Source: a virus
Direction: 5' to 3' (one strand)
Virus record (IMG/VR): IMGVR_UViG_3300010054_000046
Coordinates: 1-38,681 of that record
Length of the DNA: 38,681 nt
Shown: in pieces, positions 219-25,227 of the stretch
Layout of the letters: the number at the start of each line of letters is the position of its first letter
How positions within the stretch are numbered: the first letter of the stretch is position 1
Notes under the pieces: generated by a model
What the model was told of the DNA's origin: nothing
Database searches by the model: none
Seen by the model: the letters and a program-made list of their open reading frames with translations, nothing else
Translations under genes and position numbers: made by a program

Positions 219-242
219 AAAGCCCCTTTGCGGGGCTTTTTT
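219..242 (+). terminator. Rho-independent terminator at the left phage end
   Basis: The stem AAAGCCCC/GGGGCTTT has a 5-nt loop and is followed by a run of Ts on the + strand. It would stop host transcription entering the phage from the left. On the - strand it lies directly after the last late gene, but the T tract there is poor, so leftward termination is less certain. Confidence 0.75.
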
Positions 243-909
243 ATGTGCTGGGACTTCCATATCGCTCTATCATAAGTAAGTCCGGCTTATAGACGTCCTT
301 TACATCTGTGTTTGGCTCAAAGGTACTAAATCTTTCATCCTGCGGGGTTTTCTTGATTATGCCGGCTTTTATTTCACTTACGGCCTGCCGCATTAGTCTT
401 AACCCAATTGGTTGCAGATCGTTCTCCCATAAGCGCCTGGCGGCCTCCTTTGGCCTCATTAAATAATACTTTGGATCAATAAAGCACCAATCCTGGTAAG
501 CAATATCTCCGCGGTCTATGCCGCCATTAAGCCAGAATACACTCCCGCCTGTTATATCATCCCGCATTCTTAAAGCCCACTCAATTGCTGAGCGGCCGCG
601 ATGTTTAGGCAAAAGGCTGGGGTGGTAGCCAATCCAGCCTAACCGGGTCTTATACCGGGTTTTCCTGCCTATAAAGTCAAATGAATGGGCGGTTATCCCT
701 AAATCAACGCCCTCCGGCATTGTATCAGCGTTTAAGGATCCTGCCGGTATTATATCAATTCCAAAGGTTGAGGCTATTGAGCCAAGATACTTATCGCCTA
801 CAGGCGTACATACCCCAACAATCTCAACGCCCTCAATCGATTGGCAAAGCCTGAATACTTCTTTTGCAAAGTATTTCTGGCCGCTTATAAAAACTCTTAA
901 TTTTCTCAT
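241..909 (-). CDS. Formyltransferase-like protein (phage modification cassette)
   Basis: This 222-residue protein resembles the N-terminal catalytic domain of 10-formyl-THF-dependent formyltransferases (PurN/FMT/ArnA fold). It has the YHPSLLP motif at 95-101, followed by HRGR, TGG at 120-122 and GGIDRGDI around 129-136. His96 and Asp132 fit two of the three catalytic residues. The position of the catalytic Asn, two before the His, is Gly94. There is no tRNA-binding C-terminal domain, so it is not a housekeeping Met-tRNA formyltransferase. Its start overlaps the GNAT stop by 4 nt, so the two are translationally coupled. It may transfer a one-carbon or other acyl group in nucleobase modification; substrate unknown. 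Confidence 0.75.
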   Translation of the reverse strand: MRKLRVFISGQKYFAKEVFRLCQSIEGVEIVGVCTPVGDKYLGSIASTFGIDIIPAGSLNADTMPEGVDLGITAHSFDFIGRKTRYKTRLGWIGYHPSLLPKHRGRSAIEWALRMRDDITGGSVFWLNGGIDRGDIAYQDWCFIDPKYYLMRPKEAARRLWENDLQPIGLRLMRQAVSEIKAGIIKKTPQDERFSTFEPNTDVKDVYKPDLLMIERYGSPST

Positions 910-1424
910 TGCTCTCCAATGTATTTAAATCCCTGAATTGCGCGAAAGTGTCCGCCATATCCAGTTCCTGTTATTCCTACTTTTGATTTTTTCTGTATTG
1001 ACTCTATGCTTCTTTTTTTGTTGCTGCCGTATAGCATCGATTTGGTGTAGATCCAGCCCGGCTGCTTTCTCAAGGCCGCGCATAATTGCGGGTGTGTGGT
1101 ATGGAAAAAGGTGCCTAATTTTTTTCCTTTTCGGCCGTGGCCGTCCAGGTGTCTTTGGCAAACCTCATTTAAAAATCTAATACCAACGCCCGCTCCTTGC
1201 CATTCCGGCATAACTACTAAGCGGGTGGCTCTATAAGCCCCGGCGGTAAAAAGTGGGGCAACAGCCAAATGGCAAACAAGCTCACCGTTTACGGTTCCCA
1301 CAAAGTATTCAGACGCTACCGGCATTGCCAGGTCTAAATAATAATGCGGTTTAAAATGCTTCCAGTAACTTCCGCTGACCTTCCAAACCTCAAGCTCGAT
1401 ATCTGGTCGCTTTCCGAGATCGCT
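906..1424 (-). CDS. GNAT acyltransferase domain, -1 frame continuation of the ABC ATPase
   Basis: Acetyltransferase fold with the acyl-CoA-binding loop QGAGVG following RLVVMPEW. A free-standing start exists at ATG 1323-1325 (139 residues), but the same frame stays open upstream to the A10 tract at 1424-1433. That upstream part encodes 33 further residues, including IELEVW and FKPHYYLD, which look like the usual start of the GNAT half in phage ABC-GNAT proteins. The functional product is therefore probably the C-terminal half of a fused protein of about 373 residues made by a -1 slip, possibly alongside a separate short GNAT. Such GNATs are thought to modify DNA bases or a nucleotide precursor; the exact reaction is not known. 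Confidence 0.75.
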   Translation of the reverse strand, partial: SDLGKRPDIELEVWKVSGSYWKHFKPHYYLDLAMPVASEYFVGTVNGELVCHLAVAPLFTAGAYRATRLVVMPEWQGAGVGIRFLNEVCQRHLDGHGRKGKKLGTFFHTTHPQLCAALRKQPGWIYTKSMLYGSNKKRSIESIQKKSKVGITGTGYGGHFRAIQGFKYIGEQ

Positions 1425-2026
1425 TTTTTTTTTAATTCGTTCGTGTCGATGTTATAAACCCAATCAGGTTGCAGCCATTCAATTACATCGTAATGGCAGG
1501 ACAATAGCACCGCTTTTTTGCCCTTATTACGCCTCCACGCTTTTCCGAAGGCCAAAGCCCCCACCTTAGCAATTTGACGGTCTACAACGCTTGTAAATTC
1601 GTCAATAACAATTTGCTCTGGGGCTTCGCAAATTACCCTGGCTAGTCCTGCCCTAAATTGCTGGCCATTACTTAAAGCCCCAAAAGGTCTTAACCAGGAG
1701 GGCACGTCTCCTAAACCTACACCTGCAAGGGCACCGGTAACTGTATTAAATTTACCCTCCGGGTTAATACAGTCAACAATGGGCTTTGAGTTATCCCAGC
1801 CCGCATAAGGATTATATATTTTATCCTCTCCAAAAAAGGCTTTTCCAAGTGAAGTTTTGCCACTTCCTGACTGCCCGACAATGAGGCCAAGCCCCCAATC
1901 TTCCGGAAGATCAATATTTACCTCTTTCTCCCAATTGCAGCCCGTTTCTGCGTTAAACATGCTTTTTACCCTCGCAGCTCTATAGCTGTCAAAATCGCTG
2001 CACCTGTGTTGTAATTGAACTCTCAT
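1334..2026 (-). CDS. ABC-type ATPase (soluble, modification cassette)
   Basis: Single soluble ABC ATPase domain of 230 residues in the zero frame. Walker A is GQSGSGKTS at 51-59, the signature LSNGQ at 118-122, Walker B IVIDEF at 139-144, and an H-loop His178 lies in LLSCHYD. There is no membrane domain, so it is not a transporter. The last 29 residues after Lys201 follow an A10 run and look unnatural; a -1 shift there joins the GNAT frame. The start overlaps the stop of the upstream 43-residue gene by 4 nt. Phage ABC ATPases joined to GNAT domains are a recurring pair, proposed to take part in DNA modification. Confidence 0.85.
   Translation of the reverse strand: MRVQLQHRCSDFDSYRAARVKSMFNAETGCNWEKEVNIDLPEDWGLGLIVGQSGSGKTSLGKAFFGEDKIYNPYAGWDNSKPIVDCINPEGKFNTVTGALAGVGLGDVPSWLRPFGALSNGQQFRAGLARVICEAPEQIVIDEFTSVVDRQIAKVGALAFGKAWRRNKGKKAVLLSCHYDVIEWLQPDWVYNIDTNELKKKAISESDQISSLRFGRSAEVTGSILNRIII
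1424..1433 (-). other. A10 slippery tract between ABC and GNAT frames
   Basis: Ten consecutive A residues on the coding strand, preceded by GAATT and followed by GCG. Slipping back one base, or one extra A, converts the ABC frame into the GNAT frame with no stop in between. It could be programmed ribosomal or transcriptional slippage, a phase-variable homopolymer, or a sequencing/assembly error. Confidence 0.75.
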
Positions 2027-2313: not shown

Positions 2314-3168
2314 CTATCCCGTATAAGCAATCCAGGCCATTGTATAGAACTTAGGCCGGTTCTCGTGAGATTTCCCACCTCCGGTACTTGCTGTGGTGAA
2401 AGAAGCCGTTTGAGAACCGCTAAGGCTGGTCTCAGTAACATCAGTTGAACCAATATTGTCTTTATTCGTGAAACGGTTAGTGTCACCTGAAAAGCTGTTG
2501 TAGGCCGGAACCGCTCTAGGCAGGCTGTGCTTGTGAGGTTTAATGTAAACGCTCCCGCTGTGGCTGTGGCTCGGCAGCTCCTCTTCGGTTAAGGTGTGCT
2601 TATGAGATCCTCCCGTTTTACCTATTTCATTGTGATCTGGATCATTTGGATCTAAGCCCACTACAAACATTCCACTCAAATCCGGAGTTCCGTTGCTGCC
2701 ATCACATAGCTGCCAGCCGTCCGGGATATCATTAACGGCACCCCAATAAGGAAGACCACACTGTTTTGGCGGTAAACGCTTAGAAACCTCGCTTAACGGA
2801 CTTATCCGCTTCAGGTCTGCCCAGGCGGTCCCTTCAGCTGCAAAACGGGCGTAGCGCTCAAAATAAGCATCCTGCACGTCGGCCTGGCCGTCACCTTCTG
2901 AATCATTGAAGTACTGCACCTGTTCTATACTCTCCACTATTTCTACATGAGACTTAACGGGGCCTCCCTGGAAAGGCAAAGCCTCTCCGCCAATGATCAC
3001 TATCCCGTCGGCAGCAGATCCATTGGTAACCTCACAGCCTTTCACGATGCAATTTTCACCGCCTAAAGCAGTGGCCACACCGTGAACCTCGTTGATCATA
3101 TCTCGAACAAAGCGCCAGGTCTTTGAGGTGCCTGGGAAACCGCCGCCTAATACTACTATCTTATTCAT
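2314..3168 (-). CDS. Tail fibre with collar-domain tip (gp49 position)
   Basis: 284 residues. A phage tail-collar module spans about residues 140-284: IPDGWQLCDG, then PDLSGMFVVG, then two His-rich repeats (SHKHTL and SHSHSG), ending with NRPKFYTMAWI. In T4 gp12-like fibres the paired HxH motifs bind metal along the trimer axis. The N-terminal 140 residues probably attach to the baseplate. It follows the gp47- and gp48-like genes, matching Mu's order, and is the last structural gene before the left-end cassette. Likely part of the receptor-binding apparatus. Confidence 0.8.
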   Translation of the reverse strand: MNKIVVLGGGFPGTSKTWRFVRDMINEVHGVATALGGENCIVKGCEVTNGSAADGIVIIGGEALPFQGGPVKSHVEIVESIEQVQYFNDSEGDGQADVQDAYFERYARFAAEGTAWADLKRISPLSEVSKRLPPKQCGLPYWGAVNDIPDGWQLCDGSNGTPDLSGMFVVGLDPNDPDHNEIGKTGGSHKHTLTEEELPSHSHSGSVYIKPHKHSLPRAVPAYNSFSGDTNRFTNKDNIGSTDVTETSLSGSQTASFTTASTGGGKSHENRPKFYTMAWIAYTG

Positions 3169-22668: not shown

Positions 22669-25227
22669 ATGGCACAAAATAGCAGAATAGGCCGGCAATA
22701 CAACCAAACCAGGCAAAATAGGCCTTCAAACATAATACTTCCAAAAAGCCAATCTTTAAGCGTTCAAAACCTTAAAAAGTGGAAGGATGCCGTAGAACTT
22801 GCCTCGCTGGCAGAAAACCCAAACCGGGCACCCTTAATGGACGTTTACCGCTCCATTACACGAGACCTACACTTAAAGAGCGATATCCAAACCAGGATCC
22901 TCAAAATAATGGGTTCCAAGTTCAAGGTGACAGATATTAACGGAACGGAAAATACAGACCTGCAGAAGCTTTTTAAAGCCCAATGGTTTAATAGGTTCCT
23001 TTACCATTCCATGAAAGCTAAATTTTGGGGATCCTCTGTAATTGAGCTTTGGGATTTAGATCCTGAAACGCTCCAGCTAAAGGCCACCAATTACATACCT
23101 TCAGAAAATGTACTTTTTACTGAGGGCTTAATTGTCAAAGAGGTGGGAGATGAAACCGGCTATCCGTACAAGGAGGGAATTTATGAGCCCTATTATATCC
23201 AGGTGGGTACCAATAATGATTTAGGTATTCTGGAGGATGTGGCACCGGACGCGCTTGCCAAGAAATTTGCAAAGGCCGCGTGGCTGGAATTCTGCGAAAA
23301 ATATGGGATAGCTCCACGTTGGGTTACCACCGATAGTTTTAGCGATACCAGGCACAAAGAATTAGCCGAAATGATGGCCTCAATGGTTAATAACCATTGG
23401 GCGGTATTGCAAGGCAATGAGAAGATTGAGACGATGCAGGTGCAGGGTGGAAATGCCAAGGCAATTTTTGATGAGCTCATTCAAAGGATGAATTCCGAAA
23501 TGAGTAAAGGGATCCTCGGGCAAGACGGTACCACCAACTCAAACGAAAATGCCGGCACTTATGGAAGCCTCAGGGTTATGCAGGACGTGGCCGATGACAG
23601 GCACGAGGCCGATAAGACAGATATAAGTTATTTAATTAATGACGAGCTGCTTTGGCGACTGGAGGAGATCAGCCCCGCCTATAAAGGCATTAGTAATTAC
23701 AAATTTGATTGGGACGAAAGTAAGGAGCTTACTCCAGAGGAATTAATTGAGACGGTGGTAAAATTATCCAGTGCCGGGTACCAGGTAGATATTAAATATC
23801 TTACAGAGCAGACCGGTATTCCTATTACTGAATTTAAGCAAGCTGTTAATCCTAATTCTCCCACGCCTCCAAATGAAGGCGAAAAAAAAAAGGCCAACCA
23901 GAAGCAAGATTTAAACGCCTTAATCTCTAAGGAGATAGTTACCTATTACACCGAAAAGCTGTTATCTACCGACTCCTTTAATATGGAGGCGGTAGAACTA
24001 AGCAATTATACCCGGTTAATTGAGAAGCTGGCCAAGGATCTACACGAAGGAAAAATTAAAGGTGCCGATTTCAATGAAGACCTGGTAAGGCAAACTTATA
24101 AAGATCTATCTGAGGCGGCCGGTTCTGGTTATGGTAAGGAGTTTTACAACTACGATTCCAACGCCGAGCGTAAACTGGAGCTAAGACAGAACCTGTACAA
24201 GTTCTCTGGTGCTAAAACCTACCAGCAAACTGCAAAACTCAACTTTCTACTTCAGGGAGAAGACGGGGAGCCGAGAAGCTTCTCAGAATTCCGTAAAGAA
24301 GCGCTAAAGCTTAACGAGCAGTACAACCAGAACTATTTAAGGACTGAGTACCAAACCTCACAGCGTGCGGCCGCACAGGCCGAGAAATGGGCTAAATATG
24401 AAGGCCAGAAAGGGGTTTACCCTAACCTGCAATATAAAACGGCCAAAGATGACCGGGTAAGGGATGACCACGACGCCGTTGATGATGTTATAAAAGCGGT
24501 TGACGATAAGTTTTGGGATAAGTGGTATCCTCCTAATGGCTGGAATTGCAGGTGCTATGTAATACAGACAAATAAACCGGTAACCAGGGGAACGCCGGAG
24601 GGGGATCCTACAATGGGCTTTCATAATAACGTAGGCAAGAAAGGCAACGTATTTGACGAGGAGCACCCTTATTTTATATTTCCTCCGAAAGAAGTTAAAA
24701 AAGTGCGTTCAGGCTTTGAAAACCTTAAGATTGCCGAGCCTATGTATGAGCAAATCTACTCGAAAGGAAAGGCCAAGCTTGAGGGATCAGTCTGGGCAGA
24801 TCCTAAAGATTTTAAGGCAAATATTGATACCGGTAAAATTATGGTAGATAAGCTTGGGGTTAATGTGAAAATACGGCCACACGTGAACTCCTCTATACTT
24901 CAAAAAACCAAAAACCCGGAACTGGAGATTAACGGCAGGGTGGCAGACCTTAAAAACTTGAAGTCAAACAAAGGGGTTTCAAACGCCTTTCGGAAAGCTA
25001 AGGAGCAAATGGGAAGTGAAAAAAGCTATTCTGTGGTTCTGAACCTGGATAACATTAAAAAGCCAAATTTTGAAGTTTTAAAGAAAGAGCTTAATAATAG
25101 AATCAGCCCGGAGCGCGGCAAAAAGATATCCAGCGTATTTTTTACCTATAAGCAAAATGCCGCTGAAATCGTACGGGAGGAAATAATTAAAAGAGATTAC
25201 AAAAAACTGGAGGACCTACTTAAATAA
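22669..25227 (+). CDS. Portal-MuF fusion with C-terminal nuclease-toxin-like domain
   Basis: 852 residues in three parts. Residues about 1-410 are a DUF935-type portal (Mu gp29). Residues about 540-660 are a MuF/SPP1 gp7 head-morphogenesis domain with DRVRDDHDAVDD and PPNGWNCRCYVI. Residues about 690-852 resemble CdiA-CT-type toxins: NPELEING, then ADLK, giving Glu751/Glu753, Asp760 and Lys762 as a candidate PD-(D/E)xK site, then a helix and SYSVVLNLDNI. MuF-linked toxins are known; that the domain is an active nuclease is inference. In Mu, portal and MuF are separate genes. Confidence 0.82.
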   Translation: MAQNSRIGRQYNQTRQNRPSNIILPKSQSLSVQNLKKWKDAVELASLAENPNRAPLMDVYRSITRDLHLKSDIQTRILKIMGSKFKVTDINGTENTDLQKLFKAQWFNRFLYHSMKAKFWGSSVIELWDLDPETLQLKATNYIPSENVLFTEGLIVKEVGDETGYPYKEGIYEPYYIQVGTNNDLGILEDVAPDALAKKFAKAAWLEFCEKYGIAPRWVTTDSFSDTRHKELAEMMASMVNNHWAVLQGNEKIETMQVQGGNAKAIFDELIQRMNSEMSKGILGQDGTTNSNENAGTYGSLRVMQDVADDRHEADKTDISYLINDELLWRLEEISPAYKGISNYKFDWDESKELTPEELIETVVKLSSAGYQVDIKYLTEQTGIPITEFKQAVNPNSPTPPNEGEKKKANQKQDLNALISKEIVTYYTEKLLSTDSFNMEAVELSNYTRLIEKLAKDLHEGKIKGADFNEDLVRQTYKDLSEAAGSGYGKEFYNYDSNAERKLELRQNLYKFSGAKTYQQTAKLNFLLQGEDGEPRSFSEFRKEALKLNEQYNQNYLRTEYQTSQRAAAQAEKWAKYEGQKGVYPNLQYKTAKDDRVRDDHDAVDDVIKAVDDKFWDKWYPPNGWNCRCYVIQTNKPVTRGTPEGDPTMGFHNNVGKKGNVFDEEHPYFIFPPKEVKKVRSGFENLKIAEPMYEQIYSKGKAKLEGSVWADPKDFKANIDTGKIMVDKLGVNVKIRPHVNSSILQKTKNPELEINGRVADLKNLKSNKGVSNAFRKAKEQMGSEKSYSVVLNLDNIKKPNFEVLKKELNNRISPERGKKISSVFFTYKQNAAEIVREEIIKRDYKKLEDLLK

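Follow-up and report, generated by a model that had tools for sequence, protein, structure and literature searches.

A phage ABC ATPase-GNAT gene with a very probable programmed -1 frameshift, and in-frame relatives with a +1 signal at the same hinge

Organisation of the locus

The stretch of viral DNA analysed here, referred to as the window, comprises all 38,681 nucleotides of positions 1 to 38,681 of IMG/VR record IMGVR_UViG_3300010054_000046, and carries on its minus strand an ABC ATPase frame followed by a GNAT acetyltransferase frame (Table 1). The ABC frame contains Walker A (GQSGSGKT), signature (LSNGQ), Walker B (IVIDEF) and H-loop (CHYDVIEW) motifs. Its C-terminal 29 residues (AISESDQISSLRFGRSAEVTGSILNRIII) do not belong to the family and come after a KKK encoded by an A10 tract, one of two A/T runs of at least ten in the window. 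Across the junction the zero frame translates as ...NELKKKAISESDQISSLRFGRSAEVTGSILNRIII and then meets a TAG, and the predicted default product of this frame is an ABC protein of 230 amino acids. A first-pass annotation, made from the letters and their open reading frames, had described these terminal residues as odd, and both translation and the alignment to phrog_11143 agree with it.

In the -1 frame, the sequence continues from the tract as KKKSDLGKRPDIELEVWKVSGSYWKHFKPHYYLDLAMPV... (in a second reading from the tract, KKKSDLGKRPDIELEVWKVSGSYWKHFKPHYYLDL...) and is free of stops down to position 906; the same annotation had noted a stop-free path of 33 codons into the GNAT frame. This frame encodes the GNAT half, with the landmarks RPDIELEVW...PHYYLD...GYGGHFRAIQGFKYIG, and the GNAT ORF that had been listed is the portion of it from an internal ATG onward. 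The Pfam Acetyltransf_7 match to this half is weak and under the family cut-off, and sequence comparison with solved structures in the PDB gave only weak generic GNAT matches. The ABC and GNAT frames occupy consecutive parts of the 357-position family phrog_11143 with almost no gap. Because this family spans both, the two frames form one protein in the family, as the claim of a single split protein required, and the ABC part plus the GNAT part in the -1 frame would amount to a fusion of about 370 amino acids.

Table 1. Features of the ABC-GNAT locus and of the portal-MuF ORF in the window
Feature	Position	Strand	Details
Small ORF, 60 aa	2023..2205	-	phrog_28816; ATGA overlap with ABC start
ABC ATPase, zero frame	1334..2026	-	Pfam ABC_tran; phrog_11143 positions 1-195
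A10 slippery tract	1424..1433	-	Zero frame TTA AAA AAA AAA GCG, A_AAA_AAA in phase
Zero-frame stop TAG	1334..1336	-	Inside GNAT codons TTA GAC of YYLD
GNAT acetyltransferase half, -1 frame	906..1433	-	phrog_11143 positions 196-351, E 4.9e-52
Listed GNAT ORF	906..1325	-	From internal ATG onward
Formyltransferase-fold gene	241..909	-	PF00551; phrog_9240; ATGA overlap with GNAT stop
Portal-MuF fusion ORF	22669..25227	+	
A10 in portal-MuF ORF	23882..23891	+	GAA AAA AAA AAG, A_AAA_AAG in phase
CdiA_C-like C-terminus of portal-MuF ORF	24910..25080	+	PF18451 match just below cut-off

The formyltransferase-fold gene is a likely operon partner of the window ABC-GNAT, and such a gene also adjoins ABC-GNAT on a Delftia plasmid and in phages of Porphyromonas and Pseudomonas. 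The 60-aa ORF is the probable first gene of the operon. It occupies the position that matches a small ORF labelled 'acr candidate' directly before ABC-GNAT in Porphyromonas phages (2876-3004 in locus L162).

The domain arrangement was examined in the AlphaFold2 model of L171, an in-frame relative (mean pLDDT 82.7). Residues 202-211 form a linker that holds the slip site and that separates an ABC nucleotide-binding fold from a GNAT fold beginning at residue 212. Foldseek matched the model to ABC ATPases such as PotA, MalK and FtsE and, over its full length, to an ABC-GNAT protein of Leptospira phage LE4. As the slip site lies between the two folds, ABC alone and ABC-GNAT are both plausible folded proteins.

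Conservation of the -1 arrangement

Related viral loci and loci from bacterial and archaeal genomes were compared by script. Proteins were clustered at 85% identity; the resulting counts are not phylogenetically independent, and clustering was taken down to 50% identity to guard against this. A GNAT half in the -1 frame and an in-phase A_AAA_AA(A/G/C) are shared by 78 distinct proteins (40 clusters), and every one of the 78 aligned -1 relatives keeps the slip site in phase. Their tracts are A6(G), A7, A9, A10 or A11 in length, with A9-A11 in 69 members and A7 or A6G in the other nine. The nearest independent relative (L002), which is about 80% identical, has the A10 and the -1 offset of the window, and isolates of Flavobacterium, Chryseobacterium, Tenacibaculum, Capnocytophaga and Bizionia are among the -1 members. 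Only three of about 81 tract-bearing relatives (L088, L099 and L171) are off by one extra A.

The end of the short tail is conserved as well. A tail-frame stop occurs at the same YYL-D position in 84 of 84 -1 loci (TGA in two of them and TAG in the others), and also in 93 of 93 in-frame close relatives. When the GNAT codons between slip and stop were swapped for synonyms drawn from each gene, the -1 tail frame was expected to stay open to the conserved stop in 4.1 clusters, whereas it is open in all 40. Thus, of the three origins that the first-pass annotation had offered for the offset, programmed slippage is strongly supported by this comparison, while a phase-variable homopolymer and a sequence error both fit poorly.

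No SD-like string was found 5' of the window slip site. A downstream stem-loop or pseudoknot stimulator gave no signal across 40 -1 and 91 +1 clusters, and folding of the 70 nt downstream gave a mean z of -0.45 (SE 0.18) and no consensus structure. A stimulatory structure or upstream SD is optional for bacterial -1 frameshifting (PMC4066793).

A +1 signal in the in-frame relatives

Uninterrupted ABC-GNAT homologues, to which the first-pass annotation had looked for comparison, do exist, but they are not plain fusions: at the hinge where the -1 relatives slip, they carry a prfB-like +1 signal. This consists of an SD-like hexamer (AGGGGG, CGGAGG, TGGAGG or AGGAGG), three bases, a CTT, CCC or GTT codon, a sense codon that is usually CGG, TGG or AGG (NGG) or else CAA or CGA, and a C, as in the hinge sequence AGG GGG TAT CTT CGG C of L277. 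In the Bacteroidota members of the +1 class the SD is degenerate.

Slip codon counts from a scoring search of 207 junctions are partly circular, and those relied on here are from a fixed-column alignment of 91 in-frame clusters. In that alignment CTT encodes the hinge Leu in 62 of 64 clusters, compared with a share of 21% of Leu codons elsewhere in the in-frame genes, and the hinge Pro is CCC in 12 of 12. The base 3' of the codon after the slip codon is C in 83 of the 91. Furthermore, in 90 of 91 clusters nothing interrupts the +1 frame before a stop at the same Leu codon, where shuffles predict 17.6 such clusters (z 21), and this signal persists with only 44, 21 or 10 deeper clusters. In the larger set, 203 of 207 distinct in-frame junctions are open in +1 to a stop at the same Leu, even though the Leu-plus-next codons that form it vary widely (TTAGAC, TTAAGT, TTGAGC, CTGAAG and others). 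The four junctions with no +1 stop at the expected place are L021, L023, L025 and L314, and four +1-type members have no clear slip codon (L040, L056, L057 and L067). The strict motif NGGRGG-N3-(CTT/CCC/GTT)-NGG-C has 87 matches at junctions and 4 at other places in 3.09 Mb, and among loci fetched after the rule had been set, 28 of 28 new in-frame junctions obey it.

Other accounts of the hinge were also considered. Conservation at the protein level alone is rejected by the codon choice and by the synonymous shuffles. The idea that a free GNAT is translated from an internal start after the SD-like hexamer was discarded, as no conserved start codon lies at a usable distance. L133 and L303, candidates for -1 members lacking a slip site, proved to be +1-type with a break upstream.

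Other slip signals and host distribution

Several further -1 sites, independent of each other, occur at the junction in other lineages. In-phase heptamers were found in Enterococcus phage 9184 (A_AAA_AAG; L311), Oenococcus phage Vinitor-27 (A_AAG_GGC; L318) and a viral contig (A_AAT_TTT; L024), and two marine contigs (L033 and L466) have A tracts at the junction. Streptococcus phages have a GTT_TTT -1 site, which, like the -1 site of Thomasclavelia, is not a canonical heptamer. The tail ends at the same HYL/YYL stop in L311, L318, L024, L033, L466 and the Streptococcus phages.

In a separate marine group (L455, L457, L460 and L461), a T10 run (GAT TTT TTT TTT) replaces the SD-CTT site at the hinge, and the +1 frame is again open to the conserved stop; this would be a third type of slip signal.

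The two classes have replaced each other repeatedly. In a tree of 192 ABC domains, which is of a quick kind and has L311 on a very long branch, 8 changes between +1 and -1 are needed and at least five are forced by well-supported branches. The classes also differ between hosts, as assigned from genome-derived loci among which MAG binning may have misplaced a few: 20 of 20 Flavobacteriales loci are -1 and 23 of 23 Bacteroidales loci are +1 with a degenerate SD, while those of Bacillota, Spirochaetota, Planctomycetota, Chloroflexota and Verrucomicrobiota are mostly +1 with an SD or GGG. Phylum-wide genome searches gave few family members. Flavobacterium rarely uses SD sequences, and the Weeksellaceae have an altered anti-SD and have lost the prfB shift (PMC8710568). 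The -1 class would most naturally be read as a switch to an SD-independent signal.

Annotation of these loci is uneven. In a Streptococcus phage (L306), in L318 and in L311, the ABC part is annotated as its own CDS, in two cases named as a siderophore transporter, and the GNAT part is entered as another gene or as one in a different frame; all three appear to be -1 frameshift fusions that went unrecognised. In Tenacibaculum phage pT24 (L309), a stop within the GNAT half breaks the ABC-GNAT frame and two CDS are annotated; the break may reflect decay of this copy, an error or additional recoding.

Proposed mechanism and alternative explanations

The window locus is very probably one gene in which a programmed -1 ribosomal frameshift makes both ABC and ABC-GNAT. 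Most ribosomes would stay in the ABC frame across the A-rich slip site and terminate at the TAG, so that ABC is made as a protein of its own with a short tail. Some would instead move back by one base on A_AAA_AAA, which lies in the linker that follows the last ABC strand, and go on into the GNAT domain to give the ABC-GNAT fusion. The two proteins would probably be subunits of one DNA-modifying complex in a ratio set by the slip, and a fixed product ratio is plausible. Elsewhere in the phrog_11143 family, the same hinge would serve either a +1 shift that truncates an in-frame fusion or a -1 shift that creates the fusion.

The best reading of the codon-level evidence is that the family has been selected to make ABC alone and ABC-GNAT. 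It is likely that this two-product output by recoding has been held family-wide and that the device itself is exchangeable, with at least five switches between +1 and -1 that apparently follow host SD pairing, and with an SD-CTT-NGG-C element lacking a stop codon that is widespread. No report of recoding in the ABC-GNAT family was found in the open-access literature.

Transcriptional slippage, whereby RNA polymerase adds or drops an A in the tract and mRNAs of different lengths encode ABC or the fusion, is an unlikely explanation, even though the A9-A11 tracts of most -1 members are long enough for polymerase slippage, L099, L171 and L088 carry one extra A, and no downstream stimulator was found. 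The nine -1 members with only A7 or A6G nevertheless keep the ribosomal phase, other lineages use A_AAA_AAG, A_AAG_GGC or A_AAT_TTT, and the +1 class has no homopolymer, the T10 group excepted. Slippage by the polymerase at the A tract may nonetheless play some part in the window.

An alternative that applies to the in-frame relatives alone is that the AGGGGG...CTT...GGC element is a translational pause that lets ABC fold before GNAT, with no frameshift. SD-like sequences and rare Arg codons can slow ribosomes, and the element sits exactly between the two domains. However, a pause needs no CTT, CCC or TTT slip codon, no exact 3-base spacing and no trailing C, nor would it need a +1 frame that is open to the stop at nearly all junctions, and the -1 lineages keep dual coding without an SD. 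This explanation is considered decidedly improbable.

Phase variation at the DNA level, in which replication alters the tract length and turns GNAT on or off among phage individuals, is more improbable again. The A10 is a mutable tract and three tract-bearing relatives are one A off. Phase variation would, however, be expected to leave a mixture of tract lengths, whereas 78 of about 81 keep a length that puts GNAT out of frame, the stop and the slip phase are both conserved, and the same two-frame design occurs with A7 or A6G and, in related lineages, with heptamers that are not homopolymers. Homopolymers are error-prone, yet a sequence or assembly error hiding a true A11 and an ordinary in-frame fusion is hardly credible, as the independently assembled L002 has the same A10 and offset, which recurs with A6G, A7, A9, A10 and A11 in 78 distinct proteins, many from cultured isolates (such as Flavobacterium palustre, Capnocytophaga and Chryseobacterium), and this recurrence across loci and isolates rules out a shared sequencing error in practice.

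Comparison with known systems

The proposed ribosomal frameshift has parallels in several known genes. In Escherichia coli dnaX, where a -1 frameshift yields gamma and tau, one gene likewise gives two subunits with a common ATPase part and different C-termini, and the slip site is of the A_AAA_AAG type. In contrast, the frameshift gives the short product in dnaX and would give the long product at the window locus, a phage gene without a clear upstream SD or downstream stem-loop. The phage tail assembly chaperone G/GT, in which -1 slippage gives a short and a long form, is also a phage gene with two such products, although the protein and its function are unrelated, and its shift is not known to change direction between relatives. 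The +1 frameshift site of Ty1 is CUU-AGG-C, and exactly CTT AGG C is present in several ABC-GNAT members (e.g., the SL25 phage, L307); the differences are that ABC-GNAT is a bacterial or phage gene, that an SD is added and that the shift would make the shorter product.

The closest likeness of the in-frame element is to prfB, in which AGGGGG is followed three bases downstream by a slippery CTTT, with a conserved C after the stop codon (PMC12421855, mBio 2025). CCC and UUU are the next most slippery codons at the prfB slip position (PMC10885494). In-frame ABC-GNAT genes have an AGGGGG-like SD, a 3-base spacer, CTT and a C after the next codon; CCC is also present, and the T10 group has TTT. However, the A-site codon is a sense codon in ABC-GNAT (CGG, AGG, TGG, CAA or CGA) and a stop in prfB, and the shift would truncate the protein in the former whereas it completes it in the latter. 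The in-frame ABC-GNAT element is thus predicted to work like prfB and is not the prfB device itself.

Acylation of DNA bases has been predicted for the ABC ATPase-GNAT pair (Iyer et al., 2013, cited in PMC7824862), and Tenacibaculum phage pT24 is named as a member of this system (PMC7824862). The window has the same domain pair, with Walker A, signature and Walker B motifs plus a GNAT domain, whereas recoding is not mentioned where PMC7824862 describes these acyl-modification systems. A ParB-like gene accompanies ABC-GNAT in Gordonia, Leptospira, Pasteurella and SSU5-like phages, whereas the window neighbours are the formyltransferase gene and the small ORF, with no adjacent ParB-like gene. 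With regard to a similarity to Mu Mom, no Mom family was among the Pfam, PHROGs and NCBIfam matches of the window.

Implications

Programmed frameshifts of bacteria and phage are known gene by gene, with one direction each. The ABC-GNAT family would obtain the same two products via opposite shifts, with no fewer than six slip sequences, in hosts of several phyla. If this is true, the family is a natural experiment on the origin and direction flips of programmed frameshifts and includes a use of the prfB motif outside prfB. It could be used to test how recoding sites originate and are replaced, what a bacterial +1 signal needs when there is no stop codon, and how the anti-SD competence of the host shapes the +1 signal. 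For the protein itself, the predicted phage DNA-modification ATPase would need free ABC subunits beside the ABC-GNAT fusion. SSU5-like phages have a separate ABC gene, which fits such a need, and one of them also has an ATPase/acyltransferase-annotated gene close by. Present annotations would then miss one of the two proteins in most ABC-GNAT phages.

A second A10 in the window

The other A/T run of ten in the window lies in a portal-MuF fusion ORF, directly after the portal domain (Table 1), and the -1 frame reaches a stop soon downstream. In two relatives (L472 and L473; L471 was also compared), portal and MuF do not share a frame (-1) at the same A run. This tract may be a second programmed frameshift, which would give portal alone and portal-MuF. 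At the C-terminus of the same ORF, the near cut-off match to PF18451 (CdiA_C) suggests a toxin-like domain at the end of the MuF protein.
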